Part shown: piece after piece, positions 19,659 to 38,621 of the stretch
Numbering within the stretch: the first letter of the stretch is position 1
How the letters are laid out: each line of letters begins with the position of its first letter
NCBI GenBank assembly: GCA_024998595.1
Contig: JACOEK010000004.1
Span: forward strand, 248,001 to 312,000
Reading direction: 5' to 3'
Origin: Nitrospira sp.
Lineage (GTDB): Bacteria > Nitrospirota > Nitrospiria > Nitrospirales > Nitrospiraceae
Length of the DNA stretch: 64,000 nucleotides
Program-made: the position numbers and the translations under genes
The notes under the pieces: generated by a model
What the model saw: the letters and a program-made list of their open reading frames with translations, nothing else
Told to the model about the DNA's origin: nothing
Database searches by the model: none

Positions 19659-20017
19659 CGATCCGTCTCGCGATGGTGCTGATCGGTGTGCTGGTTTGTG
19701 CGGACGCCCAGGCCCAGACCGTGCTGCAAGTGCCCTATGACGCGGCGGTGATCGCCTGGCAACCGGCCGTGACGCCTGCGCCGACCGGCGTGGGGGAAAC
19801 GCGCTGGTATGCGATGAATTGCGGGGCGGGGGATCTTCGCATTGACCTCCCGGCCTCGTCCGTGCCGGTCAAGACCGTCGCGCCGAAGCCGGGAAAATAT
19901 AGCTGCACGCTCTGGGCCGTGAACAACTTCGGCAAATCGCTGCCGGCGACGGTGCCGGCCTTTGACGCGGGCTACCTTCCGGCCACGCCGGACAACGTGC
20001 GCATTGAGGTGAGATGA
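19655..20017 (+). CDS. Secreted FN3-like protein
   Basis: 120 aa, four-base overlap with the previous gene. Sec signal at residues 1-21 (LAMVLIGVLVCADAQAQ), then an FN3-like domain with one cysteine pair (ETRWYAMNCGAG, GKYSCTLWAVNNFGKS). The C-terminus ends in PDNVRIEVR, again the first strand of an FN3 domain with nothing after it. It overlaps the next gene, an SGNH hydrolase, by four bases. Confidence 0.65.
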   Translation: MTIRLAMVLIGVLVCADAQAQTVLQVPYDAAVIAWQPAVTPAPTGVGETRWYAMNCGAGDLRIDLPASSVPVKTVAPKPGKYSCTLWAVNNFGKSLPATVPAFDAGYLPATPDNVRIEVR

Positions 20018-21771
20018 ACCCGTACCTCGGACTCGTCGCGACGCGGGGTCAGATGCCGTTGCTGTTGAACAGCACGAACCGGCAAGCGATGTCACGCACT
20101 GGCCGCTTTGCCAGGACCGACATCACCTCCCTCCAACTCGTGTTGGCGAACTGGTACATCCCGCTCACGACCTGGGCCGAAACGGGATCTGGGAGCACCG
20201 CGACCGTCACCGCCAGCATTGAATATCCAGCCAGCACGTTCACGCAGGTGCTCTTCGGCGGGAGTCCAAGCGGGTCCATTTCAAATCTCGCGTCGCTGGT
20301 TTCGGATGCGGTGGCCGTCAGCATTCCGAATGGAGCCAAGTTTTGGGTCAGGATTTATTGGACGAGCACCACGGGGGTGCTGTACTGCGCACAAGATGTG
20401 TCCGGCGGCAGCACCATCGGTGATGGATTTGAAACCGGCGTGTCAGGGATCACCGACAAGACGATGAGCGGATCCGTCACGGCCTCAGACAATCACTATT
20501 CACCAGTTGCCGTCATCGGCCTCACTCGGGAACCGTCTGTCGTCATTGTGGGCGACAGCATTGCAGAAGGCGAGGGGGATACGGTCGGCGATGCCACGGG
20601 AGACTTCGGTTTGGTGGCTCGCTCCATCGGTCCGCGATTCGCGTACACCAATCTGGCCCGATATGCCGATGACACGGCGCGATTTCTCGCCAGCTCCACC
20701 CTGCGGCAAGCGCTGTTTCCGTATGCGTCGCATCTGATCTGCCAGTATGGGTTCAACGACTTTTACAATGCCGGCAGAACCGTCGCGACGGTGTATGGAA
20801 ACCTCTCCACGATTCGCGGGTACATGACGGCCCTGGGGTCGGAGAAACGAGCCTATCAGACGACCATCACACCCTACACCACGACGACCGACAACTGGGC
20901 GACGCTGGGAAACCAGACGGCGGTGTCCGGCAATGCGAATCGTGTCACCTTCAACAATTTGGTCCGAACGGGTCTGCCGTTCTATATCGAAACCGCCGAT
21001 GCGATCGAGTCCTCAAGAGACAGCGGCAAGCTGAAAGTGACCGGATCGGCCTTCGGCTATACGCCAGATGGAGGCCATCTCAACACGCCCGGGTATGAAC
21101 TGGTGCGAGATGCCAACGTCTTTGGAGGCATCTCGGATTTCAGCGGTGTGTTGGCCTTCCCTCGCACGATCATCCGGGACACCTTTACGCGAGCCAATGA
21201 AAGCCCTGCAACAGGCTGGACCCAGATCACGCATTTCAGCTCCGTGGTGCACCAGATTGTGAGCAACGCCCTCAAGGCCAATGCCGGGTCATCCGTCTTT
21301 GATTCGTATTTCACCAGCGTGGGCGCCTGCGGTCCGAACTGTGAGGTCTACGCCAAGTGGTCGGTCAAAGGGCCGAATCAATGGGTGACCTTGCGCGTCG
21401 CGAACCCGGGTGCGGCCACCGACGGGTACTACATTGAAATTGTGGACCATGGCGGGGGCGGCGCAGATGAGTTGAATGTGTATCGCTTTGACAACAGCGC
21501 CAACACGCTGGTCGGCGCGCAGGTGCTGCTGACCTTCAACGCGGGCGATGAACTCGGCGCGAGAATGATCGGCGACACCATTGAGGTGTTCATCAACGGC
21601 ATTCTGATCGCCACGCGCACCGATGCCACCTATTCGGCAGCGGGGTTCATCGGGTGTGGCGGCATAAGCAATGCGGGCAACACCGCGCCGCAAGCGACGT
21701 ATTTTGGTGGCGGGACGCTCGTCGGACCTCGGCTGTACCGCCCTCTGCCCATGCACTTATTGGCACGATAA
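20014..21771 (+). CDS. Tail-associated SGNH hydrolase
   Basis: 585 aa. An N-terminal beta region (residues 1-170) is followed by an SGNH/GDSL esterase domain: block I VVIVGDSIAEGEGD with the nucleophile Ser182, block III-like LICQYGFNDFYN near 245, and block V GGHLNTPGYEL near 355 providing Asp/His. A C-terminal concanavalin-like domain (residues 390-570; FDSYFTSVGACGPNCEVYAKW, VFINGILIATRTDATY) probably binds glycan. No signal peptide. Such enzymes in phages usually remove acetyl groups from capsule or O-antigen, a fitting activity beside a beta-helix spike. Confidence 0.75.
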   Translation: MNPYLGLVATRGQMPLLLNSTNRQAMSRTGRFARTDITSLQLVLANWYIPLTTWAETGSGSTATVTASIEYPASTFTQVLFGGSPSGSISNLASLVSDAVAVSIPNGAKFWVRIYWTSTTGVLYCAQDVSGGSTIGDGFETGVSGITDKTMSGSVTASDNHYSPVAVIGLTREPSVVIVGDSIAEGEGDTVGDATGDFGLVARSIGPRFAYTNLARYADDTARFLASSTLRQALFPYASHLICQYGFNDFYNAGRTVATVYGNLSTIRGYMTALGSEKRAYQTTITPYTTTTDNWATLGNQTAVSGNANRVTFNNLVRTGLPFYIETADAIESSRDSGKLKVTGSAFGYTPDGGHLNTPGYELVRDANVFGGISDFSGVLAFPRTIIRDTFTRANESPATGWTQITHFSSVVHQIVSNALKANAGSSVFDSYFTSVGACGPNCEVYAKWSVKGPNQWVTLRVANPGAATDGYYIEIVDHGGGGADELNVYRFDNSANTLVGAQVLLTFNAGDELGARMIGDTIEVFINGILIATRTDATYSAAGFIGCGGISNAGNTAPQATYFGGGTLVGPRLYRPLPMHLLAR

Positions 21772-24437: not shown

Positions 24438-24950
24438 ATGACACGACGAATCATGAGCGCGGCCATGCTGGCGCTCGCGCTGGGATGGCTGGGAGTGGCG
24501 CAGGCCGCTCCCGTGGAAGAAATGCACCGCACCGATAAGCTCATGACCGAGCATGACGGCGCGACCGGTGACATTTATCTGCTGACCAAGCTCAAAAGCC
24601 TGCTGGCCTGCGAACGGCTTCAGGATCAGGCCTCGAAAGGGCACTGCGTCATCGTCGATGCGGCCAACCTCTCCGTGATCAGCAAGACCACGGCGGCGAC
24701 GATTGGGGGCGGGGTCGCTAATGACACCTACCTCAAGCGCGTGATCGTGCTCGCGGCGCTGACGGGAACGTGCGTCTTCACCGGCTTCGCCGACAGCGAC
24801 GGCACCGCCCAGTCGTTTACCATTCCGGCCGCCTTCGTCGGCGAGCGCAATTTCGGCGGGGCGAAGAACAGCGCCGGGGCCTTGACGGTCACCTGCAGCA
24901 ATGCCGCCGACGATAACCTCGTCCTGGTCGAATGGTGGCCGGCATCATGA
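24438..24950 (+). CDS. Secreted phage protein, unassigned
   Basis: 170 aa from the ATG after GGGGGGACTT; upstream starts at 24402 and 24426 would disrupt the signal peptide. Sec signal at residues 1-24 (MSAAMLALALGWLGVAQAAP). The mature part includes two cysteine pairs (LACERLQDQASKGHCVIVD, GTCVFTGF, VTCSNAAD) and ends in a short beta module like those on phage surface proteins (DDNLVLVEWW). The start of the next gene overlaps its stop by four bases. Confidence 0.65.
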   Translation: MTRRIMSAAMLALALGWLGVAQAAPVEEMHRTDKLMTEHDGATGDIYLLTKLKSLLACERLQDQASKGHCVIVDAANLSVISKTTAATIGGGVANDTYLKRVIVLAALTGTCVFTGFADSDGTAQSFTIPAAFVGERNFGGAKNSAGALTVTCSNAADDNLVLVEWWPAS

Positions 24951-26275
24951 CGCGCATGATCGTCAGCCTGATACTCCTCGTGCTGTTTCCATTGCCGGCG
25001 CTCGCCGATCGTCCAGTGGCGACGCTCAATCCGCTGTTTGTGAATGCCTCACCTCGCCCAGTCGTTTCAGCGCGGACGGCCCCACGGCTTGTTGAGAACA
25101 TCATGGGCGGGGTCAGTTCTACGGCCTATGGCTACGAACGGTATCAGAAGGATGCTTCCTCGGCCTGGGGCGATTTCCCGACCAACACCACAGAAATTGT
25201 CTGGGGATACACGACAGACGGTGGGCAATGGTTCCAGGCCACGGCCACCCTCGGGGCAGCAGAGCGCGTGTGGGGTGCGGTGTCCTTTCCCGCAGTGCTC
25301 GGGGAAACCTACGTGATTTCCTTTACCGTCGATGCAAAGACCGGCACGCATGGGGCGGCAGGGAATGCTGCGTTAGCGAGCGGCACCTGGACGGGGACCA
25401 CCTCCATCAATAATGCGGCATTGGGCAGAAATGCGCTGGTCGTGAAAGCCACCAGCAATGCGACGGCGCAAGTTCGTCTTGGGGTGGGGGTCTCCGCAAA
25501 TAATGGGGCCACCGGCTCCATGCGATTCTCAAACGTCATGGTTGAGCGGGTGCCGGCGAGTGTGGCCTACCCCTCCGAGTATGTCTACCCAGGGGAGCAG
25601 CGCGTGTTCCCGTATAGCTATTCGACGTCTGTGGTGAGCGGGGCGGTGCAGACCCCGACCGTCGGCGCAGTGTACGCAGTGCCACGCCGCTCCAGCGTCC
25701 TGATGCTGGGCGATTCGTGGGCGAACGACCCGTGGACAGCGTCAAATTTCGGAGACTTCCCTTGGCAGACCAGGCGAGCCCTTGGCCGTGCACCAATCGC
25801 CATCAACGCCTATGGCGCGTCTGGTGCGCGTATTGACCAAATTACAAGTCAAATTGCGACGGCGGTGGCCCGCAACTCGACCATTCCAGGCGCGGGCCCT
25901 TATACCCTCTGCGTGGCCTTCGGTGGGACGAACGATATTGCGCAAAGCCGCACGCTGACGCAAATGCAAGCGGCACGACTTGAGCAAATCTCCGCCATTG
26001 TTGCGGCTGGCATGTATCCCATCCTCGTGACTGTCGCGCCCTATAACGCCGCGAGTGCCGGGCAGCAAACCGTCATGGACGCCTACAACGCGTGGCTCAA
26101 GACGTTGGGGTATCCGGTCTATGATTTATTCGCGGATGCCACCGATGGAAACAACGATCTCAAATCAGTGTGGGATGTCGGCGACGGTGTGCATCCCTCG
26201 CAGCACGCGAATGGCGGGGCTGCGATCATGGGTCAACGCCTCGCGGATCTCATCATGTTGGTAGGAGATCGATGA
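24947..26275 (+). CDS. Secreted SGNH hydrolase
   Basis: 442 aa; ATGA overlap decides the start. Sec signal (VSLILLVLFPLPALAD). Residues about 55-215 form a carbohydrate-binding-like beta sandwich (WFQATATLGAAERVWGAV, SMRFSNVMVERVP). The SGNH domain carries block I LMLGDSWAND with the nucleophile serine, block III CVAFGGTNDIAQ and block V VGDGVHPSQHANGG with Asp and His. It is the second SGNH enzyme of this cluster and, unlike the first, carries an export signal. An esterase acting on envelope or capsule glycans is inferred. Confidence 0.8.
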   Translation: MTRMIVSLILLVLFPLPALADRPVATLNPLFVNASPRPVVSARTAPRLVENIMGGVSSTAYGYERYQKDASSAWGDFPTNTTEIVWGYTTDGGQWFQATATLGAAERVWGAVSFPAVLGETYVISFTVDAKTGTHGAAGNAALASGTWTGTTSINNAALGRNALVVKATSNATAQVRLGVGVSANNGATGSMRFSNVMVERVPASVAYPSEYVYPGEQRVFPYSYSTSVVSGAVQTPTVGAVYAVPRRSSVLMLGDSWANDPWTASNFGDFPWQTRRALGRAPIAINAYGASGARIDQITSQIATAVARNSTIPGAGPYTLCVAFGGTNDIAQSRTLTQMQAARLEQISAIVAAGMYPILVTVAPYNAASAGQQTVMDAYNAWLKTLGYPVYDLFADATDGNNDLKSVWDVGDGVHPSQHANGGAAIMGQRLADLIMLVGDR

Positions 26276-26292
26276 CAAATCAAGGAGGACCT

Positions 26293-26739
26293 ATGTTACG
26301 CAACACCCTGTGCCTGATGAGTCTGTGCCTGCTGGTGGGACTGACCGGCTGCGTGGAGCGGCTGGAGCACTTCCATCGGGGGAACAAGATCATCGAGCGG
26401 CATTACATTCCGGGAGACTGGAGCATTCCGGGGGATGTGTCCAAGACGGAATGCCGACCCGATCAAATGGAATGGAGCGTGTTCTGGGGGAAGAAGGTCT
26501 GCCCGGACACGATCGAGAAAAACGCACCGCTCGCGGTGGAGCGCGGGAGCGTGCAGACGGCCAGTTACAAAGATCTGGTGGTGCCGGCGGCCATTCAGGG
26601 GGCGTTCACCTTCGGGGGCTTTGTCGCGCTGGCGAAACTCTCACCGGAGGTGCGGATCAACCAGGCCAACTACGGCAGCCCGATTCGAACGAGCACGCTG
26701 CTGATCAATGGCCCTGTCCCTGGAGGCGTGGCGCCCTGA
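26293..26739 (+). CDS. Phage-encoded lipoprotein
   Basis: 148 aa after AAGGAGGACCT. A lipoprotein signal with lipobox LTGC puts the mature N-terminus at Cys20. The mature part has a cysteine pair (TECRPDQ, KKVCPDT) and a C-terminal hydrophobic stretch near residues 95-115 (VPAAIQGAFTFGGFVALAKL) that may contact membrane. It lies between tail and lysis genes. Phage lipoproteins at such a position often block superinfection or act in lysis; which applies is unknown. Confidence 0.7.
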   Translation: MLRNTLCLMSLCLLVGLTGCVERLEHFHRGNKIIERHYIPGDWSIPGDVSKTECRPDQMEWSVFWGKKVCPDTIEKNAPLAVERGSVQTASYKDLVVPAAIQGAFTFGGFVALAKLSPEVRINQANYGSPIRTSTLLINGPVPGGVAP

Positions 26740-26963
26740 TGACCTGCACACGCTGCGGAGGCCTCTGTCGGGTGGAGCTGGCGCGAGGGCGGCGCGGAGA
26801 GGGTTTGATTCGCCTCTGGGCCTGCCTGATCTGCGGAGACCGCACCGACGGTCAGATCCGCTGGTATCGCCGGCAGGCGGTGGAGGCCTCCATCACGCAG
26901 CGGTGGAAAGAGCTGGTCTGGGCGGATGTGTGTGATCTGGTGAAACGGAGGGCGACGGCATGA
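26739..26963 (+). CDS. Small zinc-ribbon protein
   Basis: 74 aa, ATG sharing a base with the preceding stop. Two knuckles (CTRCGGLC near residues 3-9 and CLICGD near 30-35) form a treble-clef or ribbon zinc site, followed by a basic-acidic helix (WYRRQAVEASITQRWKELVW). Similar mini-proteins recur across this phage. Target, DNA, RNA or protein, is unknown. Confidence 0.6.
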   Translation: MTCTRCGGLCRVELARGRRGEGLIRLWACLICGDRTDGQIRWYRRQAVEASITQRWKELVWADVCDLVKRRATA

Positions 26964-27088
26964 TCAGGTTCACGATCAGCCGCCGGCAGTTTCTGAAGGT
27001 GTCGATCGGGACGGTCGCAATGGGGTGGGGGATTGTGCCGATCACGAATGGTCTGTTGCAGGAGGGGCACGCATGGAATCAACGGTGA
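26960..27088 (+). CDS. Micro-ORF with a twin-arginine motif
   Basis: 42 aa; its ATG overlaps the upstream stop and its end overlaps the endolysin start by 16 bases. It reads MIRFTISRRQFLKVSIG, an almost perfect Tat motif (SRRxFLK) followed by a hydrophobic stretch (VAMGWGIVPITNGLL). As a protein on its own it would be little more than a signal peptide or one membrane anchor. The endolysin frame is one base behind, so a -1 slip in the overlap would fuse this signal to the enzyme; no classical slippery site is visible. Confidence 0.45.
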   Translation: MIRFTISRRQFLKVSIGTVAMGWGIVPITNGLLQEGHAWNQR

Positions 27089-27555
27089 CACCCTGGCAGA
27101 TGTACGGGCGCGTGCTACTGGCGCTCACCCTCTGGCGCGAGGCGCGGGGGGAACCGTTCACCGGCAAAGTGGCGGTGGCGCAATCCATCAAGAACCGCGT
27201 CGATCATCCCTCATGGTGGGGGAACGATCTCGTGTCGGTGCTCACCAAGAAATGGCAGTACTCGAGCCTGACCGATCCCCACGATCGGCAGCTCACCACC
27301 TGGCCGAAGGCGGATGACGCGGTGTTCGAAGAATGCCTCACCATTGCCGACGGGGTGCTGAAGGAGCGCTACGCCAGCCCGCTCACGCGCGGGGCGGATT
27401 CGTACTTTGACGACTCGCTGCAAGGCGATCTGCGGCCCAAGTGGGCGCGGGAACATCCGGAGCGGTTCGTCGGCAAGATCGGGCGCATGAACTTTTACAA
27501 CATGGATTGCGACGTCGAGGACCCGCACGTCTCGATTAAGGAGACCGAGGCCTGA
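27073..27555 (+). CDS. SleB-like cell wall hydrolase (endolysin)
   Basis: 160 aa after AGGAGGGGCACGC. It has the hydrolase_2 (SleB/CwlJ) pattern: LTLWREARGEPFTGKVAVAQSIKNRV near residue 20 with the key Glu of REARGE, then ADGVLKERYASPLTRGADSYF and the GRMNFYN end. These enzymes cleave the peptidoglycan glycan backbone. It has no signal peptide, so it needs a holin, or help from the Tat micro-ORF ahead of it. It lies at the head of the lysis module. Confidence 0.85.
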   Translation: MESTVTPWQMYGRVLLALTLWREARGEPFTGKVAVAQSIKNRVDHPSWWGNDLVSVLTKKWQYSSLTDPHDRQLTTWPKADDAVFEECLTIADGVLKERYASPLTRGADSYFDDSLQGDLRPKWAREHPERFVGKIGRMNFYNMDCDVEDPHVSIKETEA

Positions 27556-27695
27556 TGTTGCTGTATCGCTGCCCGCGCTGCGGCGCGACCTATCCGCATG
27601 ACGAGGCCAACCCCCATGCGGTGTATCGGTGTCCATTTCGGAAGGAACGAGAACAGGAGGAGCGCGATGGCGGAGGGCAACGGAAACGGGCTTGA
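27555..27695 (+). CDS. Zinc-ribbon micro-protein, 46 aa
   Basis: The ATG shares a base with the endolysin stop. It encodes YRCPRCGATYPHDEANPHAV followed by YRCPF, i.e. a CxxC and a third cysteine, then a very charged tail. The end overlaps the next gene by 29 bases in another frame. Overlap with both neighbours and the cysteine pattern support a real gene; function unknown. Confidence 0.5.
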   Translation: MLLYRCPRCGATYPHDEANPHAVYRCPFRKEREQEERDGGGQRKRA

Positions 27696-28035
27696 AATGG
27701 AAGCGGGGCCGGCGAAGGTGCGAGCGACCGGGAGCACGACCATCACCGTGCTGCTGGCGATCCTCATCATCGCGGCGAACTTCTACAGCGTGTTCGTCAC
27801 GAATCAGCAGACCATCCAGATTCAAGCCGAACATGCGCAGCACCTGGCCATCATCAGCACGGACCACCGCGCCATGGTGGAGGCGATGCGGGAGCAGGCC
27901 CAGGCCAGCGACAACGTGTTTCTGTCCACGCTGATGACACCGGATCAAAAGCAGGATCTGCCCGGGTATCTCAAGGCGCGGGCGAAGGCGATCGTGGAAC
28001 GCAAGGCGCAGACGGTCACGGAGAATCGGCAATAG
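27667..28035 (+). CDS. Single-span membrane protein of the lysis module
   Basis: 122 aa after ACAGGAGGAGCGCG. One membrane helix at about residues 25-45 (ITVLLAILIIAANFYSVFV) is followed by a periplasmic helical, coiled-coil-like region (IQIQAEHAQHLAIISTDHRAMVEAMREQAQ). This topology fits either an inner-membrane spanin or an accessory holin. It is the first membrane protein after the endolysin. Confidence 0.65.
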   Translation: MAEGNGNGLEMEAGPAKVRATGSTTITVLLAILIIAANFYSVFVTNQQTIQIQAEHAQHLAIISTDHRAMVEAMREQAQASDNVFLSTLMTPDQKQDLPGYLKARAKAIVERKAQTVTENRQ

Positions 28036-28073
28036 TGCATCAACGCCTGTCATGGGAAGGGGAGGGCTTCGAT

Positions 28074-28346
28074 ATGGAATGGCTGCATAATCTACTCGGC
28101 GGATCGAGCCCGATCACGGGCTATCTGGGCTCACTGATCATGCTGCTCGATGTGCTGAATCAGGTGTTGGTGGTGCAGGCCTGGCCGAAGAACGCCCAGG
28201 AATGGATCGTCTTCATCGGCGCGTTCTGCACCGGCCTCTCGGCGCGGCTGGCCAAGGATGCCAACAAAAGCCACGCGCAAGACCCGCAGCCGGTCGCCCA
28301 GCCGGTCAAGGCCGTCGCGCCCGAGCCGCCCTATGGGATGCCGTAA
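28074..28346 (+). CDS. Probable holin
   Basis: 90 aa. The ATG after GGGGAGGGCTTCG is preferred to the GTG 39 bases upstream. Two hydrophobic stretches (YLGSLIMLLDVLNQVLVV and WIVFIGAFCTGLSARL) and a charged, Pro-rich C-terminal tail are typical of class II holins, which open the inner membrane to release endolysin. It directly follows the endolysin and the single-span protein. Confidence 0.65.
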   Translation: MEWLHNLLGGSSPITGYLGSLIMLLDVLNQVLVVQAWPKNAQEWIVFIGAFCTGLSARLAKDANKSHAQDPQPVAQPVKAVAPEPPYGMP

Positions 28347-28552
28347 TGCCCTGGAGCGACGTGCCCACACTGCTGCTGAAAGCCTGGCGGTATCTGCTGG
28401 GGGATCAGACGCGAAAGGAGGCCAGCCTTGAAGCTGATGGAGAACGCGCCCTGGAGGCGAGCAAGCAGGCCCGCACGGCTGCTGAGCTTAACGCTGCTGA
28501 TGCTGACCTGCAGCGCGTGCATGACGAAGCCCGCGCCGCCCGCGGCGAATGA
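28346..28552 (+). CDS. Rz-like helical protein
   Basis: 68 aa, ATG sharing a base with the holin stop. It has a short hydrophobic start (VPTLLLKAWRYLLG) and then a long charged helix (LEADGERALEASKQARTAAELNAAD), similar to the periplasmic helix of spanins but without a convincing membrane anchor. A lipoprotein gene in another frame begins inside it, the Rz/Rz1 arrangement. The inner-membrane role may be shared with the product at 27667. Confidence 0.5.
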   Translation: MPWSDVPTLLLKAWRYLLGDQTRKEASLEADGERALEASKQARTAAELNAADADLQRVHDEARAARGE

Positions 28553-28733
28553 CCGGCCCTGCTATCAGTGGGTGATCACGCAGGATCAGGAAGTGTACGT
28601 CTACGACAATGGGCATCTGGTCGCGCGATTGGAGACCGAGCCCTATGATGCGGTGATTTCCGGCTGGTGCGTGATGCGGAATAACGAACACCTGATGAAC
28701 GATATCCGGAGGCTGGCGAGGCCGACGGACTAG
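28428..28733 (+). CDS. Rz1-like outer-membrane spanin lipoprotein
   Basis: 101 aa. The TTG start is supported by AAAGGAGG eight bases upstream, stronger than any site before the ATG at 28437. A basic start, hydrophobic LLSLTLLMLTCSAC and a Cys in a lipobox-like context followed by Pro-rich KPAPPAA define a lipoprotein. The gene overlaps the Rz-like gene by 125 bases in a different frame. Spanins fuse inner and outer membrane in the last lysis step. The globular end (YQWVITQDQEVYVYDNGHLVARL) is longer than lambda Rz1. Confidence 0.6.
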   Translation: MKLMENAPWRRASRPARLLSLTLLMLTCSACMTKPAPPAANDRPCYQWVITQDQEVYVYDNGHLVARLETEPYDAVISGWCVMRNNEHLMNDIRRLARPTD

Positions 28734-28740
28734 AGGTCCG

Positions 28741-28917
28741 CTACACGCGGCTTTGTCCAGCTTGTGATCGTGCCTTGACGATGGCGTCCCATTGAATATC
28801 GCTAAGCATGATGGGCTCGCCTCCGGCAAACTGGACCAGCTTGCCTCCGTTGATTTCCTTTGCGAACTGAACCGCATGGGGGTCAACAATGTATTCACCC
28901 AGCTGAATGAAGCTCAT
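28741..28917 (-). CDS. Small phage protein, minus strand, 58 aa
   Basis: An AGGAGG site lies five bases before the ATG, which is strong support. The protein (FIQLGEYIVDPHAVQFAKEI, IMLSDIQWDAIVKARSQ) is soluble with strand-helix character. It is the last gene of a leftward cassette and converges on the lysis operon 8 bases away, so transcription of the two must be separated in time or end in this junction; no terminator is seen. Confidence 0.6.
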   Translation of the reverse strand: MSFIQLGEYIVDPHAVQFAKEINGGKLVQFAGGEPIMLSDIQWDAIVKARSQAGQSRV

Positions 28918-28946
28918 ATGCCTCCTATGTGTTTAACGTGAAATTA

Positions 28947-29126
28947 CTACTTCGGTAACCACGTCGGCGCTTCGGGGGCGGCCTTCGCGGCTTCGCCGGG
29001 GGTGGTTTTTCTGCCGACCATGGCCGTCGCTTCCCAGCCGCGAATGGTGCCGATCAATTCGGCGCGATCAGCGGCCCAGAATGTCTCCCTCGCACCAACT
29101 ACTCTTCGTTCCTCCGCTATACGCAT
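28947..29126 (-). CDS. Small phage protein, minus strand, 59 aa
   Basis: ATG-started ORF that overlaps the end of the nuclease gene by 59 bases in a different frame. It is basic at the start (MRIAEERRVVGARETFW), then RAELIGTIRGWEATAMVG, and ends with an Ala/Pro-rich tail. The long overlap makes it less certain than its neighbours, but it fills an otherwise empty gap in a compact leftward operon. No family recognised. Confidence 0.5.
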   Translation of the reverse strand: MRIAEERRVVGARETFWAADRAELIGTIRGWEATAMVGRKTTPGEAAKAAPEAPTWLPK

Positions 29127-29520
29127 ACGCCAGGCCAGCCTTTACCAGTTCATCTGCCAGATCGATCCCGTCCGCCACGATCAGCGCCAGCACGCGGAAG
29201 TATTTGTCACGCGCGACGAATTCAATCTGAATATCCTGGGCGCTGCGAAGATGTTTCATCAGAAAGGTCTTGGCTTCCCTGGCGAGGTCTCGCTCCCGAT
29301 CGCATTTGCCCTTCATCTCTGGCGTATCGATGCCGACGAGTCGCAGGCCCAGCCTATCGCCAAAGATTCCCGGCAACGTCGGAATGCTGATGGTGCAGGT
29401 ATCGCCGTCATAGCAGTCATGGATCGTCGCCGATCCGACTGTCGTCGTGGCATCCGGATAAGCCGCAACGGCCACGCAGGGCACCGCCAGTGCAGTGGTC
29501 AACATCAGTGTTCGGATCAC
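29068..29520 (-). CDS. Exported thermonuclease-like (SNase) protein
   Basis: 150 aa from a GTG that overlaps the preceding stop (GTGA); an ATG at 29505 is possible. Sec signal (LMLTTALAVPCVAVAAYP). The SNase fold is clear: HDCYDGDTCTISI near residue 40, LRLVGIDTPEMKGKCDRERDLAREAKTFL near 65-95 (Arg and Glu/Asp of the active site), DKYFRVLALIVADG near 115 and AGLAYAYSGGTKSSWC at the end. Ca-dependent cleavage of nucleic acid in the periplasm or outside is expected. In a prophage this could degrade incoming DNA (superinfection exclusion) or scavenge it; both are inferences. Confidence 0.8.
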   Translation of the reverse strand: MIRTLMLTTALAVPCVAVAAYPDATTTVGSATIHDCYDGDTCTISIPTLPGIFGDRLGLRLVGIDTPEMKGKCDRERDLAREAKTFLMKHLRSAQDIQIEFVARDKYFRVLALIVADGIDLADELVKAGLAYAYSGGTKSSWCEGDILGR

Positions 29521-29861
29521 GGCAGCTGCACGATGGAAATCGACCAATCTCCCGCTCCGCTGATTTGCAGATAATAGGTCCCGCCCGTCGGATAATACGT
29601 TGCGCCTGGGCCAGGCTTCGTCTGGACGGCAATCGTGTCCACGGGGTCTCCGTTCTGGGCATGCAAAATGGCCGTAAAGATCGGGCCCGCTGCTGTCCAG
29701 CGGAGTTCCCATCCATCTTTCACCGTGAATGGGCGAAGATTGCGGGTGCCGCTTGCGGAGGCTTGCTGGACCACTTCCTCTGCGAAGGCTGGACCGCTGC
29801 TGAGGGGGACCGCGAGCAGCGCGAGCATAAACATGATGGAGATAGCGCGCACGGTGTTCAC
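29517..29861 (-). CDS. Secreted phage protein in the nuclease cassette
   Basis: 114 aa. Sec signal (ISIMFMLALLAVPLSSGPAFA). The mature part is a small beta sandwich (TRNLRPFTVKDGWELRWTAA, YYPTGGTYYLQISGAGDWSISI) that resembles secreted proteins of the kind that carry a single jelly-roll. It overlaps the nuclease start by four bases and directly follows the lipoprotein, so all three are translated together. Function unknown. Confidence 0.7.
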   Translation of the reverse strand: MNTVRAISIMFMLALLAVPLSSGPAFAEEVVQQASASGTRNLRPFTVKDGWELRWTAAGPIFTAILHAQNGDPVDTIAVQTKPGPGATYYPTGGTYYLQISGAGDWSISIVQLP

Positions 29862-30191
29862 CTATTGATGCACGGTCGGATCGTAACCGACTGGTTTCGT
29901 GACGCCGGGGGCTGGCTCACCGTCCACAGTGATGCACTGCGTGCCGAACAGCAGCAGATAGAACCAGTCCAGGGAAATGCTTCTGATCTTCTGGATCGGG
30001 GGACTCGCATTCGCCATGGCTTGTTCGACCGTGTTGGTTCCGAAGCCGAAGCCCATGACCATAAAGGAGCAAGTACTGCCTTCAGTCATCGGCTTAACGG
30101 TTGGGTTTTCAGGGGTGAGTTTATTGGTGATATTCACACACCCTGACACCAGCATCGCGATTAGCAAGACAAGCCCGCTCAGTGTGTGCAT
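29862..30191 (-). CDS. Lipoprotein heading the minus-strand cassette
   Basis: 109 aa from the ATG after CGGAGAACCCTG. Lipobox LVSGC after a hydrophobic LSGLVLLIAML. The mature protein has two cysteines (GSTCSFMVMGFGFG, GTQCITVDG) and resembles small bacterial lipoproteins of the TRL type (GFGFGTNTVEQAMANA); that is a pattern impression only. Its stop abuts the next gene start. Region 30192-30417 upstream holds no gene and no convincing promoter that I can see. Confidence 0.7.
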   Translation of the reverse strand: MHTLSGLVLLIAMLVSGCVNITNKLTPENPTVKPMTEGSTCSFMVMGFGFGTNTVEQAMANASPPIQKIRSISLDWFYLLLFGTQCITVDGEPAPGVTKPVGYDPTVHQ

Positions 30192-30417
30192 CAGGGTTCT
30201 CCGTGGGGTAGGGGGTGCTGTTGGCATGCGGCACAATTCTCGGCGTCTAAAATTGACACATCGTGCCGCCTACAATACCGAACCGGACGAAAAGATGAAA
30301 GGGCTTCGTCTGCCGATCGCCGCATAAACAGTCTCACCGAGGCGGTGGGGCCGCTCTGAATGGCCCTAGGCATCTGCCCTACGTATTTCTTTTTGGTGCG
30401 GGGTGCTGGTGTCTGCG

Positions 30418-30738
30418 CTAAGAAGGGGAGCCGTGGCGCTTCTTCTCCTTTGGCCTGTCGAGATCGCGCCGATAGACAGGTCTCTCCTCAGCAATAAAAT
30501 CGAGCGGAAATCCTTCATCGTCAATCCTGCCGCCCGCTTCTTCGTATCGCTTCACCAAATAGTGCACGGCGCGGTCAACCAGGGTGTTCATGGAATTAAA
30601 ATTCTTCGGATGCGCTGAAACAAACTCATCCATCAACGCTTTGAGCGAGCGTGTGCCCGATATTTTAATTTGAACGTCCCGCTTCTCGCCGTCTTTTTTC
30701 GCCATAAATACAACTGCTTGGTGGTGAAGTGGTGCCAT
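30418..30738 (-). CDS. Putative DNA-binding regulator, divergent
   Basis: 106 aa starting at the ATG preceded by CAGGAAGGCCCAC; an internal ATG at 30705 (MAKKDGEK) is possible. Its pattern (RDVQIKISGTRSLKALMDEFV, then MNTLVDRAVHYLVKRYEEAGG) is a strand followed by two helices, as in ribbon-helix-helix proteins, and it ends in a basic tail. It faces the early promoter at 30773, so it is a candidate for the lysogenic repressor in place of a CI-like protein, which is absent. The role is inferred. Confidence 0.6.
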   Translation of the reverse strand: MAPLHHQAVVFMAKKDGEKRDVQIKISGTRSLKALMDEFVSAHPKNFNSMNTLVDRAVHYLVKRYEEAGGRIDDEGFPLDFIAEERPVYRRDLDRPKEKKRHGSPS

Positions 30739-30772
30739 TGTGGGCCTTCCTGCAAAAAATTATCAACGGGTA

Positions 30773-30801
30773 TTGACATGGTACCATGTTGGTACTAATA
30801 T
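30773..30801 (+). promoter_or_regulatory. Early promoter with embedded operator
   Basis: TTGACA at 30773-30778, a 17-base spacer and TAATAT at 30796-30801 make a near-consensus sigma-70 promoter. The spacer holds a perfect 12-bp palindrome CATGGTACCATG (30777-30788), and TGGTAC recurs 11 bp later (30790-30795), one helical turn on the same face. This is what a ribbon-helix-helix repressor operator would look like and would block polymerase directly. It drives the early genes to the right. Confidence 0.8.
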
Positions 30802-30807
30802 ACGGCC

Positions 30808-30987
30808 ATGAAGTCGTCACGAATGACCACACGAACCAGGAAGTCGGCGCGGCGTCCGATGATCAAGATTCACACGACGCAAGAGATCGTTGACCAGTTC
30901 GCTGCCAAGGCGAAGGCCGACGGTCGCTCCATGTCGAAGCAGGGGGAATACCTGATTCGGCAGCATTTGTCTCAAGCCACTCACTAG
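30808..30987 (+). CDS. Ribbon-helix-helix protein, 59 aa
   Basis: Begins six bases after the -10 box, so its mRNA would start at or very near the ATG (leaderless) unless a later ATG (30823 or 30859) is used. A basic arm (KSSRMTTRTRKSARRP) precedes an RHH core: strand MIKIHTTQEI, helix VDQFAAKAKADGRS, MSKQGEYLIRQHL. Arc/Mnt-type repressors have this size. Autoregulation at the operator upstream is the natural inference. Confidence 0.7.
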   Translation: MKSSRMTTRTRKSARRPMIKIHTTQEIVDQFAAKAKADGRSMSKQGEYLIRQHLSQATH

Positions 30988-30998
30988 GGGAGGTGTCC

Positions 30999-31256
30999 AT
31001 GTCCCGCCCGAAACTCACTGAGCGCATCACGATCCGGCTGCCAGAAGAATTGCTGCAGGACCTTACGGCCGACGCAGCTCGCCGGAACAGCAGCATCAAT
31101 GAGGTGGTGTTGGGGGCCATCGAGCGGGACCTTTCCTTCCGGCTGACCTATCGCTGCGATTACTACGCGCAGCTTCGCACGCTCGGCCTGTCGGGCCAAG
31201 GCGACAATGTCAGCGACTTTCCTCGTTTGTCAGACACGAAAGTGCGGGCGGTGTAA
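30999..31256 (+). CDS. Arc-like ribbon-helix-helix protein
   Basis: 85 aa from the ATG after GGGGAGGTGTCC. RHH core near the start: RPKLTERITIRLPEELLQDLTADAARRNSSINEVVLGAIERDL, described here by its strand (ERITIRLP) and its two helices with the RNSSIN turn, which is the Arc-type signature. The C-terminal 40 residues are an extension of unknown role. Second RHH gene in a row behind the early promoter. Confidence 0.75.
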   Translation: MSRPKLTERITIRLPEELLQDLTADAARRNSSINEVVLGAIERDLSFRLTYRCDYYAQLRTLGLSGQGDNVSDFPRLSDTKVRAV

Positions 31257-31303
31257 CGGGGCGGGGAATCAGCAGTTTTTTTGACCAGGAGAGGCCTAGG
31301 CAC

Positions 31304-31717
31304 ATGAGCAGCCATTGTGATTCGACCATGCCGGACGATGCAAGGGAACTGGGGGCAACCCTGGAGGCGCTGTCGGAATATTCTGACGGTCCTGTCGCCG
31401 CACCGACGACGCCTGCCAGCCTGCTAGGCCTTCCGCTTCCGGGGATCGACCGTTGTGATTGCCGCATTCAAGCCCTGGACGCCATTCGCCTGGAGATTGC
31501 CACCTGGACGCTGGGGACGGTGCCCGACCTGGAGGTGTGGGCGCATGAGGTCGCGGGGTGGATTGTGGAATTGCCCACGGAGGATTTGCGGATATTTTGG
31601 CCGGGGCTCCTGGCGCTGGATCTCCACGAGCGGGCGGGCCTCTCGCTCCGTGCCGCCTCGGGGCTGATTCAGCGACATGTCGGCGTGGCCCTGCTCACCA
31701 AGGGAGGACGGAGATGA
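31304..31717 (+). CDS. Early phage protein, unassigned
   Basis: 137 aa after CAGGAGAGGCCTAGGCAC. A disordered start (SSHCDSTMPDDAREL) is followed by a Cys pair (CDCRIQAL) and helices (AIRLEIATWTLG, LEVWAHEVAGWIVELP, LRAASGLIQRHVGVALL). No family is recognised. It overlaps the following gene by four bases, and so is part of the early operon. Confidence 0.55.
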   Translation: MSSHCDSTMPDDARELGATLEALSEYSDGPVAAPTTPASLLGLPLPGIDRCDCRIQALDAIRLEIATWTLGTVPDLEVWAHEVAGWIVELPTEDLRIFWPGLLALDLHERAGLSLRAASGLIQRHVGVALLTKGGRR

Positions 31718-32055
31718 ACAGCACGAAGCGACCGAATGTGCGCTGGCAGCAGCATGGCGCGGGGGTGAGTACGGTGTCGGCGATGAACCGGCAACAGTGG
31801 GACGCGCCCAGTGCGGACCTCGATCGCGCCATCAACCGTCGGGCCTATGCGGTGACGGGGCTGATCGTCGCGGTGCTCGTCACGATCCTCATGAACCTGA
31901 ACCATCTGCCGGACTTCTGGGGCGGCTTCACGGCGGGGGTGATCACGCTGGCGGCCCTGGGTCTTGGGGCCCTGGCCATCGGCGCCTGTCTCGGCGGCGC
32001 CAGGCTCTCGGACGTGCCACGCCCCGGCACCGGTGACCGGGGGATGCCCCGATGA
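31714..32055 (+). CDS. Small membrane protein
   Basis: 113 aa, ATGA overlap and GGGAGGACGGAG upstream. A basic soluble start is followed by two membrane helices at about residues 45-62 and 70-95 (AVTGLIVAVLVTILMNL, AGVITLAALGLGALAIGACLGG). Early-expressed phage membrane proteins often act in superinfection exclusion; that is inference only. Confidence 0.55.
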   Translation: MNSTKRPNVRWQQHGAGVSTVSAMNRQQWDAPSADLDRAINRRAYAVTGLIVAVLVTILMNLNHLPDFWGGFTAGVITLAALGLGALAIGACLGGARLSDVPRPGTGDRGMPR

Positions 32056-32228
32056 TGCGGGAATGCCTCCAGGCGCTCTTGCTGATCGCTCTCGGGGTAG
32101 GGGTGGCCGCCACGATCAACCTGCTGTTCGACTGGCGACGGAATAAACGCCTCAACAAGTGGATGGAAGAGCCGCGCTACCTCCCGGCCTGCGCCAGCGC
32201 GGGCACCGTGAGGCCGGGGCGACGATGA
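32052..32228 (+). CDS. Small single-span membrane protein, 58 aa
   Basis: Two adjacent ATG codons overlap the previous stop. One hydrophobic helix (LQALLLIALGVGVAATINLLF) is followed by a basic segment (WRRNKRLNKWM), so the C-terminus is cytoplasmic. Its stop overlaps the next start (ATGA). Too short for the usual size filters but well supported by the overlaps. Confidence 0.5.
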   Translation: MMRECLQALLLIALGVGVAATINLLFDWRRNKRLNKWMEEPRYLPACASAGTVRPGRR

Positions 32229-32425
32229 GCCAGACCTTGTACCGAGACATTCGGCAGACCCGCGCGAGGCGGCAGATCCCGACCCGGACGGCGTTCCGCA
32301 TCGAGCGCCAACAGCCGCCCGATGCGTTTCTGAAAGTTCCACGGGGAACACAAGCCCGCCGGGGCAGTGCCAGCACGGCGGCCATGCACCGGGCGACGCA
32401 ACTCGCGGCCCGCCTGGGCCTGTAA
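32225..32425 (+). CDS. Small basic early protein
   Basis: 66 aa, very rich in Arg (RDIRQTRARRQIPTRTAFRIERQ, ending AMHRATQLAARLGL). The composition suggests nucleic-acid contact. It overlaps the membrane protein gene by four bases. No family recognised. Confidence 0.5.
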   Translation: MSQTLYRDIRQTRARRQIPTRTAFRIERQQPPDAFLKVPRGTQARRGSASTAAMHRATQLAARLGL

Positions 32426-32437
32426 CGGAGGACCGCC

Positions 32438-32593
32438 ATGCACCAGATCGAGCAACAGTTGCAGGACCGCAATCTCGAAGCCGCCTGGCAGCTCGCCGGG
32501 GGCTGGGCGCGGGAAGATCAAGACCACCTGGCCGACCTGATCGTGGAGCGGTTCATCCGCCAGCCGGAGCGGCAGCAGCCAGCGAGCCACTAA
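32438..32593 (+). CDS. Small early protein, 51 aa
   Basis: ATG after ACGGAGGACCGCC, a good binding site. It is predicted to be one long amphipathic helix pair (IEQQLQDRNLEAAWQLAGGW, HLADLIVERFIRQ). Spacing and site support a real gene; function unknown. Confidence 0.5.
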   Translation: MHQIEQQLQDRNLEAAWQLAGGWAREDQDHLADLIVERFIRQPERQQPASH

Positions 32594-32608
32594 TCAAGGA
32601 GGAATGTG

Positions 32609-32977
32609 ATGCACGAACCGACACCGCTGAGTCTCGACACGATTTGTGAAGGCCAGATCCCAGCCATCTTCACGCGCGAATTGCGCGAGGTGCTCGACAA
32701 TATTTCCGATCCCAACACCGCCGCCGCCAAGACCCGCACCATCACCCTGACGCTGAACCTGAAGCCGCTGGACGATCGCAGCGGGGCGGTGATGTCGTTT
32801 ACCTGCAAATCCAAACTGGTGCCGGTTTCTGTCGCGGCGAGCACCTGCTTCCTCTCGCGCCACACGGGACGGCTGGAGGCCTACGGCATGGATACGCGGC
32901 AGGGGGTGTTGTTCGGGCAGACCTCGGACGCACCCGCGCCCGCATCGGACAGCAAAGTCATCAATCTGAAACCTTAA
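32609..32977 (+). CDS. Early phage protein, unassigned
   Basis: 122 aa after CAAGGAGGAATGTG (a GTG three bases upstream is an alternative start). Alpha/beta pattern (FTRELREVLDNISDPNTAAAKTRTITLTLNLKP shown here as helix then strand, SFTCKSKLVPVSV, GRLEAYGMDTRQGVLF). Proteins of this size and pattern often sit beside recombination genes in siphophages, but I cannot name it. Confidence 0.55.
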   Translation: MHEPTPLSLDTICEGQIPAIFTRELREVLDNISDPNTAAAKTRTITLTLNLKPLDDRSGAVMSFTCKSKLVPVSVAASTCFLSRHTGRLEAYGMDTRQGVLFGQTSDAPAPASDSKVINLKP

Positions 32978-33007
32978 TCGAGGCCTCGCCTCAGAACGGA
33001 CACGCCG

Positions 33008-33724
33008 ATGCTCAAGGAACTCGCCGAATATCTCGTGCAGCAATCCGTGCCGACCACCATGCAGTTCGATGGGCTGTCGTATGTGAACAGAACCCTTTCC
33101 CTGATGGCTCCGCCGCTGGTGCCCAAGCTCACGGTCAGCACCTTGACCGGCTTGGTGGATGCCGTGAAGGAACCGCTTCCTCTCATTGCGAACGACGCCT
33201 GGGTGCTGTGGGTGGAATCCCATAAAGCCGTCTCGGTGGTGTCGTTGCGAGGTGATCAGTATGGCCGACGGGCGTGCCTGGTCCGTGCCGAGCTACCGGA
33301 GGGCGAGCGGCCCTTCCGCTTCGACACCTTTCACGATCGAGAATCCTTCGTGATCGGGCTGCAGAGCCGCTTTGTGCCATCCGGACCGTTGACCTCGGTG
33401 CTGGAGGTGGCCTCGGCACTGACCGATGCGCAGGTGGTCACGAGCGAGGACGACGGGATCTCACAGAGCACGACGATCAAGCGCGGGGTCGCCTCCCTGA
33501 AGCAGCCCATCACCGTGAAGGGGCGGGTGCCGCTCCAGCCCTATCGCACGTTTCGAGAAATTGAGCAGCCGACCTCGGAATTCATCTTCCGTCTGCAATC
33601 CAAAGAAGGCGTGCCGGCCTGCGCCTTATTCGAGGCCGATGGGGGGAAGTGGCAGCTCGATGCGATGCTGACGATCAAGGCGTGGCTCGAAGCGAAGGAG
33701 CTAGGCCTGCGCGTGGTGGCGTGA
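33008..33724 (+). CDS. Phage DUF2303-like protein
   Basis: 238 aa. The order of features (LKELAEYLVQQSVPT, FRFDTFHDRESFVIGLQS, TSVLEVASALTDAQV, KRGVASLKQPITVKGRV, PYRTFREIEQPTSEFIFRL) resembles phage proteins of the DUF2303 type, which are found in recombination/replication modules with unknown biochemistry. The match is by impression. It precedes the zinc-binding and HD proteins. Confidence 0.55.
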   Translation: MLKELAEYLVQQSVPTTMQFDGLSYVNRTLSLMAPPLVPKLTVSTLTGLVDAVKEPLPLIANDAWVLWVESHKAVSVVSLRGDQYGRRACLVRAELPEGERPFRFDTFHDRESFVIGLQSRFVPSGPLTSVLEVASALTDAQVVTSEDDGISQSTTIKRGVASLKQPITVKGRVPLQPYRTFREIEQPTSEFIFRLQSKEGVPACALFEADGGKWQLDAMLTIKAWLEAKELGLRVVA

Positions 33725-33939
33725 TGACCTCGCACTGTGACCCGATCCGCCATCCGCACGCGCTCTGCTCGGAATGCGGACATCGTGAGGCGATGGTGGC
33801 GCTCAACGCCCGGCGCTCACCGAAAAGCCGCAAGGCGAAACGGGCGGGGCGGTATCGGTTGAAGGCCCACGATCTCTGTGGGCCCTGCTGGCGAGCCATG
33901 TGTGCGCAGTTTTGGGTGCATGGGGAGGTGTCGGCATGA
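33724..33939 (+). CDS. Small zinc-binding protein
   Basis: 71 aa, ATG sharing a base with the preceding stop. Cysteine pattern LCSECGH near residue 14 and LCGPCWRAMC near 52, with a basic linker (SPKSRKAKRAGRYRLK). A zinc-stabilised nucleic-acid binder is likely. Overlaps the HD gene by four bases. Confidence 0.55.
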   Translation: MTSHCDPIRHPHALCSECGHREAMVALNARRSPKSRKAKRAGRYRLKAHDLCGPCWRAMCAQFWVHGEVSA

Positions 33940-34454
33940 GCCAGCGCGATGCCTCGCCCTGCATCCGCACCTATCGGTGGATCGACTTCAATCCGCTGGA
34001 GCCGGACCCGGTCAAGATCCTGATTGAAGACATCGCCCGGGCGCTCTCGCACATCTGCCGGTACAACGGCCACGTCAATCAGTTCTACAGCGTCGCCGAA
34101 CACAGCCTCCGGGTGAGTGCCAGCGTGCCACACAAAGACGCCTTGTGGGGGCTGTTGCACGATGCCGCCGAGGCCTATCTGGGGGACTTCGTGAGCCCGC
34201 TGAAGCATCACACGGAATGCGGCGAACACTACCAGCGATACGAGGCCCTTGTGATGGCGGCGGTGTGCCAACGGTTCGGTCTGTCTGACCACTGCCCGGC
34301 CTCCGTCCTTCGTGCGGACCATGAGCAATTGCAGGAAGAAGAACACTGGCTGCGCCAGCCGCTCACCGGCAGCACCTGGCACCGCGTGGTCACCATGCCA
34401 CCACTCCAAGCTGAACTTGAGTTTTTGAACCGCTTTCGGGAGCTGACGCGATAA
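33936..34454 (+). CDS. HD-domain phosphohydrolase (YfbR-like)
   Basis: 172 aa. The HD metal site is visible: YSVAEHSLRVS near residue 50, LLHDAAEAYLGDFVSPLK near 75, and RADHEQLQEEE near 125. This arrangement is that of YfbR-like 5'-nucleotidases and phage-encoded homologues, which act on deoxynucleoside monophosphates. It lies directly ahead of the replication gene, so nucleotide-pool control during replication is a reasonable inference. Confidence 0.75.
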   Translation: MSQRDASPCIRTYRWIDFNPLEPDPVKILIEDIARALSHICRYNGHVNQFYSVAEHSLRVSASVPHKDALWGLLHDAAEAYLGDFVSPLKHHTECGEHYQRYEALVMAAVCQRFGLSDHCPASVLRADHEQLQEEEHWLRQPLTGSTWHRVVTMPPLQAELEFLNRFRELTR

Positions 34455-38409: not shown

Positions 38410-38621
38410 GCCCCACCTCACCAACCATATCCGGCTGGTACTGGTATCGAGAAGACGGCTTGAATCTTGACCGTCCGATGCCTGTCTGGGTGTTCGAGCA
38501 CAGCGGGCGGATCTATGCGGATCTCTGCACGGTGCACGAGCCCGCGACCTTCCGATGCACGCGCATGGTCACCGATTGCCCGGGGGACTGGCTGGGAAAA
38601 CTGGAGCCACCGACCGCATGA
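38406..38621 (+). CDS. Small phage protein, 71 aa
   Basis: ATGA overlaps on both sides. The pattern ISGWYWYREDGLNLDRPMPVWVFEHSGRIY, here described as a Trp-rich start with a WVFEHSG strand, is common in small phage proteins that are rich in aromatic residues next to integrase genes. Function unknown. Confidence 0.55.
   Translation: MSPTSPTISGWYWYREDGLNLDRPMPVWVFEHSGRIYADLCTVHEPATFRCTRMVTDCPGDWLGKLEPPTA

Follow-up and report, generated by a model that had tools for sequence, protein, structure and literature searches.

A predicted exported nuclease in an apparently exchangeable cargo slot of a Nitrospira prophage

Introduction

The moron or lysogenic-conversion loci of temperate phages consist of extra genes on the opposite strand, which lie by conserved modules and beside the switch and vary among close relatives, and the cassette described here resembles them in all of these respects. 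Such accessory loci are reported to be often expressed in lysogens (PMC7067206). However, the exchange of genes in the Nitrospira slot appears to run via shared signal peptides. Prophage-encoded envelope proteins that are reported to act at DNA entry (viz. Ltp of phage TP-J34, which is a lipoprotein, and gp15 of HK97) offer a further likeness. No homology of the cassette to Ltp or HK97 gp15 was detected, and to our knowledge neither of these systems includes a nuclease.

SNIPE, a membrane-bound nuclease which cuts phage DNA during injection (PMC13190303), shows that the cutting of DNA as it enters can work in practice, and the separation of self from foreign DNA by a nuclease at the entry site is likewise the working idea here. 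However, SNIPE is a GIY-YIG nuclease with DUF4041 on the cytoplasmic side of the inner membrane, whereas the nuclease studied here is a predicted exported staphylococcal-type nuclease (SNase), which matches SNase only and not the GIY-YIG, DUF4041 and transmembrane segment by which SNIPE members are recognised. An extracellular DNase located on a prophage is also reported from Streptococcus pyogenes (Spd-3; PMC3629212). The closest likeness in family is to the PF00565 thermonucleases, inclusive of the exported phage SNases of PHROG 452, with which the domain, the catalytic residues and the export signal are held in common. Spd-3 differs in both its nuclease family and its host. In comparison to the PF00565 and PHROG 452 relatives, the Nitrospira members are distinguished by four conserved cysteines (a C-x5-C motif and two more), by a tandem arrangement with the gene for a beta jelly-roll protein (P2), and by their location in a swappable slot.

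The phages of nitrifiers are poorly known, and partial coverage of the literature retrieved no paper on such a Nitrospira locus. The locus presents a concrete gene set that a prophage may give to Nitrospira. The present work concerns the window, i.e. the whole 64-kb stretch of DNA that was analysed (bases 248001-312000 of contig C2), and positions are those of the window unless preceded by C2 or by another contig or locus.

Results and discussion

The prophage and its lysis region

The cassette lies inside a temperate phage genome, as indicated by an attachment repeat, an integrase and the head, tail and lysis genes. The prophage is 43.5 kb in length (C2:244276 to 287784) and is bounded by an exact repeat of 49 bp corresponding to the 3' end of tRNA-Phe; its genes include those for portal, protease, major head, tape measure, tail, endolysin, replication, RusA and integrase proteins. 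The cassette occupies the interval between the plus-strand lysis genes, which end at 28733, and a divergent control region at 30706-30807.

C2 244276-244324, left copy of the attachment repeat, outside the window
39736-39784, right attachment repeat, 49 bp, inside tRNA-Phe (39740-39815) at its 3' end
38555-39880, plus strand, prophage integrase, overlapping the tRNA-Phe attachment site
27073-27555, plus strand, lysis-module endolysin, transcribed towards the cassette (convergent)
28428-28733, plus strand, Rz1-like spanin, the final lysis gene, 8 bases from the cassette

Some minor features of this region may be recorded. As the integrase ORF crosses the attachment site, integration sets the 3' end of the integrase. 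Two large ORFs are found on the tail side, one matching the lysophospholipase L1-like esterase family (20014-21771; PHROG 8480) and the other SGNH hydrolase-like with a signal peptide by eye and with no PHROG match (24932-26275). A 42-aa ORF with a twin-arginine-like start (SRRQFLK; 26960-27088) overlaps the start of the endolysin ORF, and through a frameshift it could provide the endolysin with a signal for export or for an early exit. A search of positions 26000-34000 against Rfam gave 0 matches.

Three solid genes in the cassette

The initial annotation had described a leftward cassette of five small genes, each touching or overlapping the next, and had proposed it as a moron expressed in the lysogen, for superinfection exclusion or DNA scavenging. 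Minus-strand ORFs are indeed present at the coordinates given, opposite to the plus-strand portal, tail, endolysin and Rz1-like genes, but three of them are solid genes and not five. The three are the lipoprotein, the secreted beta protein and the exported thermonuclease-like protein, each of which was borne out as described.

29862-30191, minus strand, TRL-like lipoprotein, 109 aa, with a lipobox LVSGC (by eye) and TRL-like family similarity
29517-29861, minus strand, P2, predicted exported beta jelly-roll protein, 114 aa, its start abutting the TRL stop
29068-29520, minus strand, predicted exported staphylococcal-type nuclease, 150 aa, PF00565, with a GTGA overlap with the P2 stop
28947-29126, minus strand, 59-aa ORF, probable non-functional remnant corresponding to the 3' end of a lipoprotein gene of which a sister prophage has the complete copy
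28741-28917, minus strand, 58-aa ORF with a Shine-Dalgarno-like sequence and no convincing relative

The contact between neighbouring genes holds for the first four ORFs (the TRL-like gene and P2 abut, P2 and the SNase overlap by 4 nt, and the SNase and the 59-aa ORF by 59 nt), but a gap of 29 nt precedes the 58-aa ORF. Because relatives of the TRL-like lipoprotein, P2 and the SNase are found in other genomes, these three ORFs are more than chance. On the present comparisons the cassette is real and is a lysogen-type cargo slot with a predicted exported nuclease, and its lipoprotein, P2 and nuclease genes bear the hallmarks of lysogen-expressed accessory genes.

The nuclease scores 47.9 bits against PF00565 (curated cut-off 21), and all of the catalytic residues are present (D40, R60, D65, T66, E68 and R109), which we take to be equivalent to D21, R35, D40, T41, E43 and R87 of SNase. 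Its export signal was read by eye, and its cysteines 36, 42, 73 and 143 are conserved among the Nitrospira relatives (8 aligned rows, one of which is a fragment). No match of the cassette to a known superinfection-exclusion family was found in PHROGs, PADLOC gave only a weak SNase-domain hit, and the two resources, when searched for a described exclusion or defence protein, returned only nuclease-domain matches or weak hits. The SNase of Sulfurimonas phage SNW-1 matches the window nuclease at 42% over 108 residues, and its gene lies on the strand opposite to a CII regulator and the terminase. In the SNW-1 locus (L136 4606-6327), the exported SNase opposite the CII regulator lies 3' of a BRCT-like gene that is named a DNA polymerase in the record; a repressor identity for this upstream gene was considered and rejected, as the gene is BRCT-like.

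The lipoprotein scores 19.8 bits against PF13146, which is below the curated cut-off of 25, and it is for this reason named TRL-like rather than a family member; 5 of its 16 relatives match PF13146 at E values up to 0.01 (best 2.2e-6), and the alignment of the TRL-like proteins contains no conserved stretch. In three other genomes (G010, G008 and G017) the TRL-like genes come after small ribbon-helix-helix-like genes, a call that is below the Pfam cut-off for G010 and G008 and made by eye for G017, and the TRL-like gene of G008 is near an integrase that is 73% identical to that of this prophage. Three TRL-like lipoprotein genes are present in tandem in both G016 (L065 8898-9927) and G010 (L032), those in G016 being near an integrase gene.

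The export signal of P2 was read by eye (AFA/EE). AlphaFold2 models it as an all-beta jelly roll, in which the core blocks of 10 residues score 95-98. On comparison with jelly rolls inclusive of the pre-peptidase C-terminal, GOLD and collagen-binding types, the best structural match (Z 9.6) is a subtilisin of Thermococcus in its C-terminal domain, followed by YomS, Eph, GOLD and ColG domains at 8-9. Judged from this model, P2 is similar to many binding-type jelly rolls, a common fold from which a function does not follow. Relatives of P2 were found in 23 of 235 genomes of the order, its own genome included. A tandem-duplicated P2-type domain within one exported protein was observed outside Nitrospira, in Dethiosulfatarculus sandiegensis (L125 7995-8624).

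The claim that two further small genes belong to the cassette is wrong for the 59-aa ORF, a probable remnant, and unproved for the 58-aa ORF. The similarity of the 59-aa ORF to a 141-aa lipoprotein of the sister prophage is confined to the C-terminal part of that protein (79% over the last 39 aa; 56% over 64 aa), and since its DNA homology to the sister prophage is limited to 28948-29063, it is probably a stub left by a cargo swap. For the 58-aa ORF no relative was found among 29 genomes of the genus. Its single viral hit was rejected, being unconvincing once the reading frame was translated, and a viperin-like identity (PADLOC, NCBIfam) was also set aside, as the matches were weak and very partial. 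The presence of a remnant in the slot, along with one broken P2 relative (G009/L130), raises the question whether the whole cassette is passenger DNA with no present use that is decaying in the same manner as the stub. However, the three coupled genes are intact, the nuclease has retained every catalytic residue, and the pair of P2 and the nuclease has been repeatedly maintained in phages, so that we consider this explanation distinctly improbable.

The control region beside the slot

Upstream of the cassette are found a leader, a putative regulator gene and the divergent control region, beyond which the early genes are read on the plus strand.

30192-30390, minus strand, leader between the regulator gene and the cargo, about 90% identical in DNA to the sister prophage despite different cargo
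30228-30237 and 30260-30269, inverted repeat in the leader
30418-30705, minus strand, putative regulator, 95 aa, ribbon-helix-helix-like by eye only, divergent from the early genes
30700-30830, divergent control region, matched by the sister prophage at all of its 131 bases (131/131)
30773-30801 (plus strand) and 30766-30737 (minus strand), promoter-like sites in the control region
30777-30788, palindrome CATGGTACCATG in the control region
30730, 30779 and 30790, TGGTRCYA boxes in the control region
30808-30987, plus strand, ribbon-helix-helix gene, the first early gene, PF07878 below cut-off
30999-31256, plus strand, ribbon-helix-helix gene, PF01402 just over cut-off and Arc-like repressor in PHROGs

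The regulator gene is a candidate for the first gene of the cargo transcript. Its product gave no Pfam match, and its single-sequence structure model is poor. The promoter-like sites number 3 against 1.5 expected, and a search for a terminator of the cassette yielded no convincing one. The TGGTRCYA sequence has 4 matches in the window, all at 30730-30797, against about 3.8 expected window-wide, and as it was derived from the control-region sites themselves and fitted after the fact, this clustering is a hint and not a test. The RNA fold of the leader is not better than that of shuffled sequences (z -1.19). An ORF within the leader (30191-30373) was rejected as a gene, because 10 of its 17 changed codons are nonsynonymous as against 21 of 57 in the regulator, which makes conserved DNA likelier than a conserved protein. 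When the DNA of the leader and control region was searched at E values up to 1, many short matches due to chance were obtained, and the only real ones are those in G000 and G018.

Exchange of cargo between related phages

The sister prophage (L161, on contig C9 of G018) was recognised by tblastn with the phage proteins of the window, and the identities are 76% for the integrase, 70% for the replication protein, 75% for the holin-like protein, 82% for the Rz1-like protein and 73% for the regulator. In this close relative the cassette is replaced by other cargo: the slot has the same place and orientation, but it encodes a lipoprotein of 150 aa that differs from that of the window, the 141-aa lipoprotein in its complete form and several small products, inclusive of that of a helix-turn-helix (HTH) gene, whereas the nuclease is absent. 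The two sister prophages thus form a pair in which the cargo differs and the control region is shared. Between its conserved flanks the regulator gene has undergone 77 changes in 240 bases (first 80 codons). The identity of the 131 bases could reflect a recently recombined patch rather than selection.

When the two slots are aligned, their DNA ceases to be homologous at the lipobox of the first lipoprotein (30137) and is homologous again from 29063, at the SNase stop. The first 18 or so codons of the TRL-like gene, which encode its signal peptide and lipobox, have DNA in common with the gene of the other lipoprotein that the sister prophage carries. A second break of this kind was seen in two Mu-like phages that carry P2 and a nuclease. 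In their nuclease genes (L057 and L070) the DNA of the signal peptides is identical at 42 of 43 bases, as counted by eye, and then diverges; the P2 proteins are 88% identical and the nucleases only 57%, and the nuclease of L057 is closer to that of another Mu-like phage, L135 (65%), than to that of L070. In the window likewise, P2 is nearest to that of G010 and the nuclease to that of L070, in trees that are weakly supported. Based on these comparisons the mature part is apparently swapped behind a shared signal peptide in two cases, once for a lipoprotein and once for a nuclease, and as homology breaks off at the signal peptide in each of these separate cases, phages may have a simple means of trading exported proteins. 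Further, the HTH gene of the sister prophage is 67% identical to a gene that neighbours the P2-nuclease pair on a viral contig of the Mu-like type, from which it appears that unrelated phages draw on the same pool. The interval is, on this evidence, a slot for predicted exported accessory proteins that are exchanged between phages, located beside a conserved divergent control region.

A bolder form of this reading would have the signal peptides act as recombination anchors, with the mature domains of lipoproteins and nucleases being replaced while the control region and the secretion signal are kept; the locus would then be a hot-swappable envelope-protein slot of Nitrospira phages, whose nuclease cargo is an extracytoplasmic DNA barrier diversifying under phage-phage conflict. 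In this full form we regard the proposal as speculative and rather unlikely.

A separate observation concerns a lysis-region lipoprotein (26293-26739), whose 33% relative in the sister prophage (L161 11726-12196) is found across the spanin gene from the corresponding position, next to the cargo slot, indicating that this lipoprotein gene has moved.

The P2-nuclease pair in other genomes

Profile searches of the loci place an SNase gene next to P2 in 6 cases among the 21 P2 genes for which the flanks were read (some 12 more distant P2 genes were left out), compared with an expectation of about 0.0007 per gene, a contrast which, as the loci are related, does not amount to a true probability. The six loci are those in the window, in G018 (L057/L126), in an IMG/VR contig (L070/L071), and L128, L135 and L131. 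In the first five of these P2 is followed by the SNase, whereas in L131 an SNase of another subfamily lies upstream of P2. L128 is a contig of 5.9 kb, whose other strand contains tail genes akin to those of this phage. Scans of the viral contigs with the nuclease alone or the TRL-like protein alone revealed no relatives; a P2 search of the viral library gave no informative match; and tblastn of P2 and of the TRL-like protein against named phages found no relatives. The viral scan with the replication protein likewise revealed no relatives, and that with the endolysin found six, none of which had P2, SNase or TRL genes in the stretch covered.

The tandem coupled genes, with the P2 stop and the SNase start overlapping in both the window and L057, could be taken to indicate that the two proteins are a matched toxin and inhibitor, P2 holding the nuclease inactive inside or at the cell. 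However, the partners are unmatched, as noted earlier from the identities in L057, L070 and L135, and P2 is thus unlikely to be a matched inhibitor of the nuclease; in 15 of the 21 P2 genes, further, there is no SNase next door. We therefore view this explanation as very improbable.

In three Mu-like phages (L057/G018, L070 and L135) the pair is located directly 3' of a putative repressor and one short gene, on the strand opposite to the Mu transposase; the transposases were identified by Pfam, and the repressor has an HTH_3 match in L135 only, those of L057 and L070 being assigned by position. This arrangement bears upon a role in the lytic cycle, in which an exported nuclease made late would clear the DNA released at lysis or aid virion release. 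The nearness of the nuclease gene to the lysis genes agrees with such a role, as do the distant SNase relatives in many phages of all sizes, including some very large phage contigs, which mostly have an N-terminal hydrophobic stretch by eye; exported SNases being so widespread in phages, their export is not special to lysogeny. However, the cassette does not share its strand with the lysis and early genes, nor does the pair with the transposase in the Mu-like phages, and a lytic role appears quite improbable. The moron reading of the initial annotation, in contrast, gains comparative support from the swap of cargo beside a conserved control region and from the position of the pair 3' of a putative repressor in these three phages.

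A possible barrier to foreign DNA in the envelope

The best overall explanation, to which we assign a rough probability of 0.45, is that of an exchanged prophage slot with cargo read from the lysogenic side and an envelope nuclease cutting foreign DNA. The cargo would be transcribed leftward, on the lysogenic side of the switch, either along with the regulator gene or immediately following it, while the lytic genes are silent, and the coupled start codons would lead to the TRL-like lipoprotein, P2 and the nuclease being made together and all exported. The lipoprotein would be anchored in the membrane, and the nuclease, presumably stabilised by disulfides, would act in the periplasm or at the cell surface, where it would cut foreign DNA, mainly that of other phages, passing or spilling into the periplasm. 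The lysogen would be shielded in this manner, and the resident prophage would be spared because the nuclease stays outside the cytoplasm.

The weakest step in this explanation is the last, viz. that the purpose of the nuclease is an extracytoplasmic barrier to foreign DNA, which we put forward tentatively, at somewhat less than even odds. It is based on the occurrence of the genes in phages, on the rapid replacement of the nuclease body, which is as expected in conflict, and on the frequent expression of accessory loci in lysogens mentioned earlier. If the barrier is true, the nuclease would correspond, outside the cytoplasm, to membrane nucleases such as SNIPE. The many exported SNases of other phages weigh against a barrier. 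However, related SNases also stand alone in Nitrospira chromosomes, and such chromosomal relatives, one of them beside a ComEA-like gene, suit a use of DNA and argue against a barrier. They suggest instead DNA scavenging, in which the lysogen obtains phosphate and nucleotides by degrading DNA outside the cell or in the periplasm, or thins the biofilm. In L131 a chromosomal SNase of the other subfamily is beside a ComEA-like HHH_3 gene and P2, in G003 the chromosomal relative is likewise preceded by a gene that is ComEA-like by eye, and biofilms of Bacillus subtilis are reported to reclaim DNA phosphate via secreted nucleases (PMC11458576). However, the cargo described here sits in phages, the slot of the sister prophage is without a nuclease, and nutrition needs no rapid exchange of the nuclease body; scavenging is thus a rather unlikely competitor to the barrier. 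The chromosomal run in L131 (7147-8261) is in the order ComEA-like HHH gene, SNase of the other subfamily and P2.
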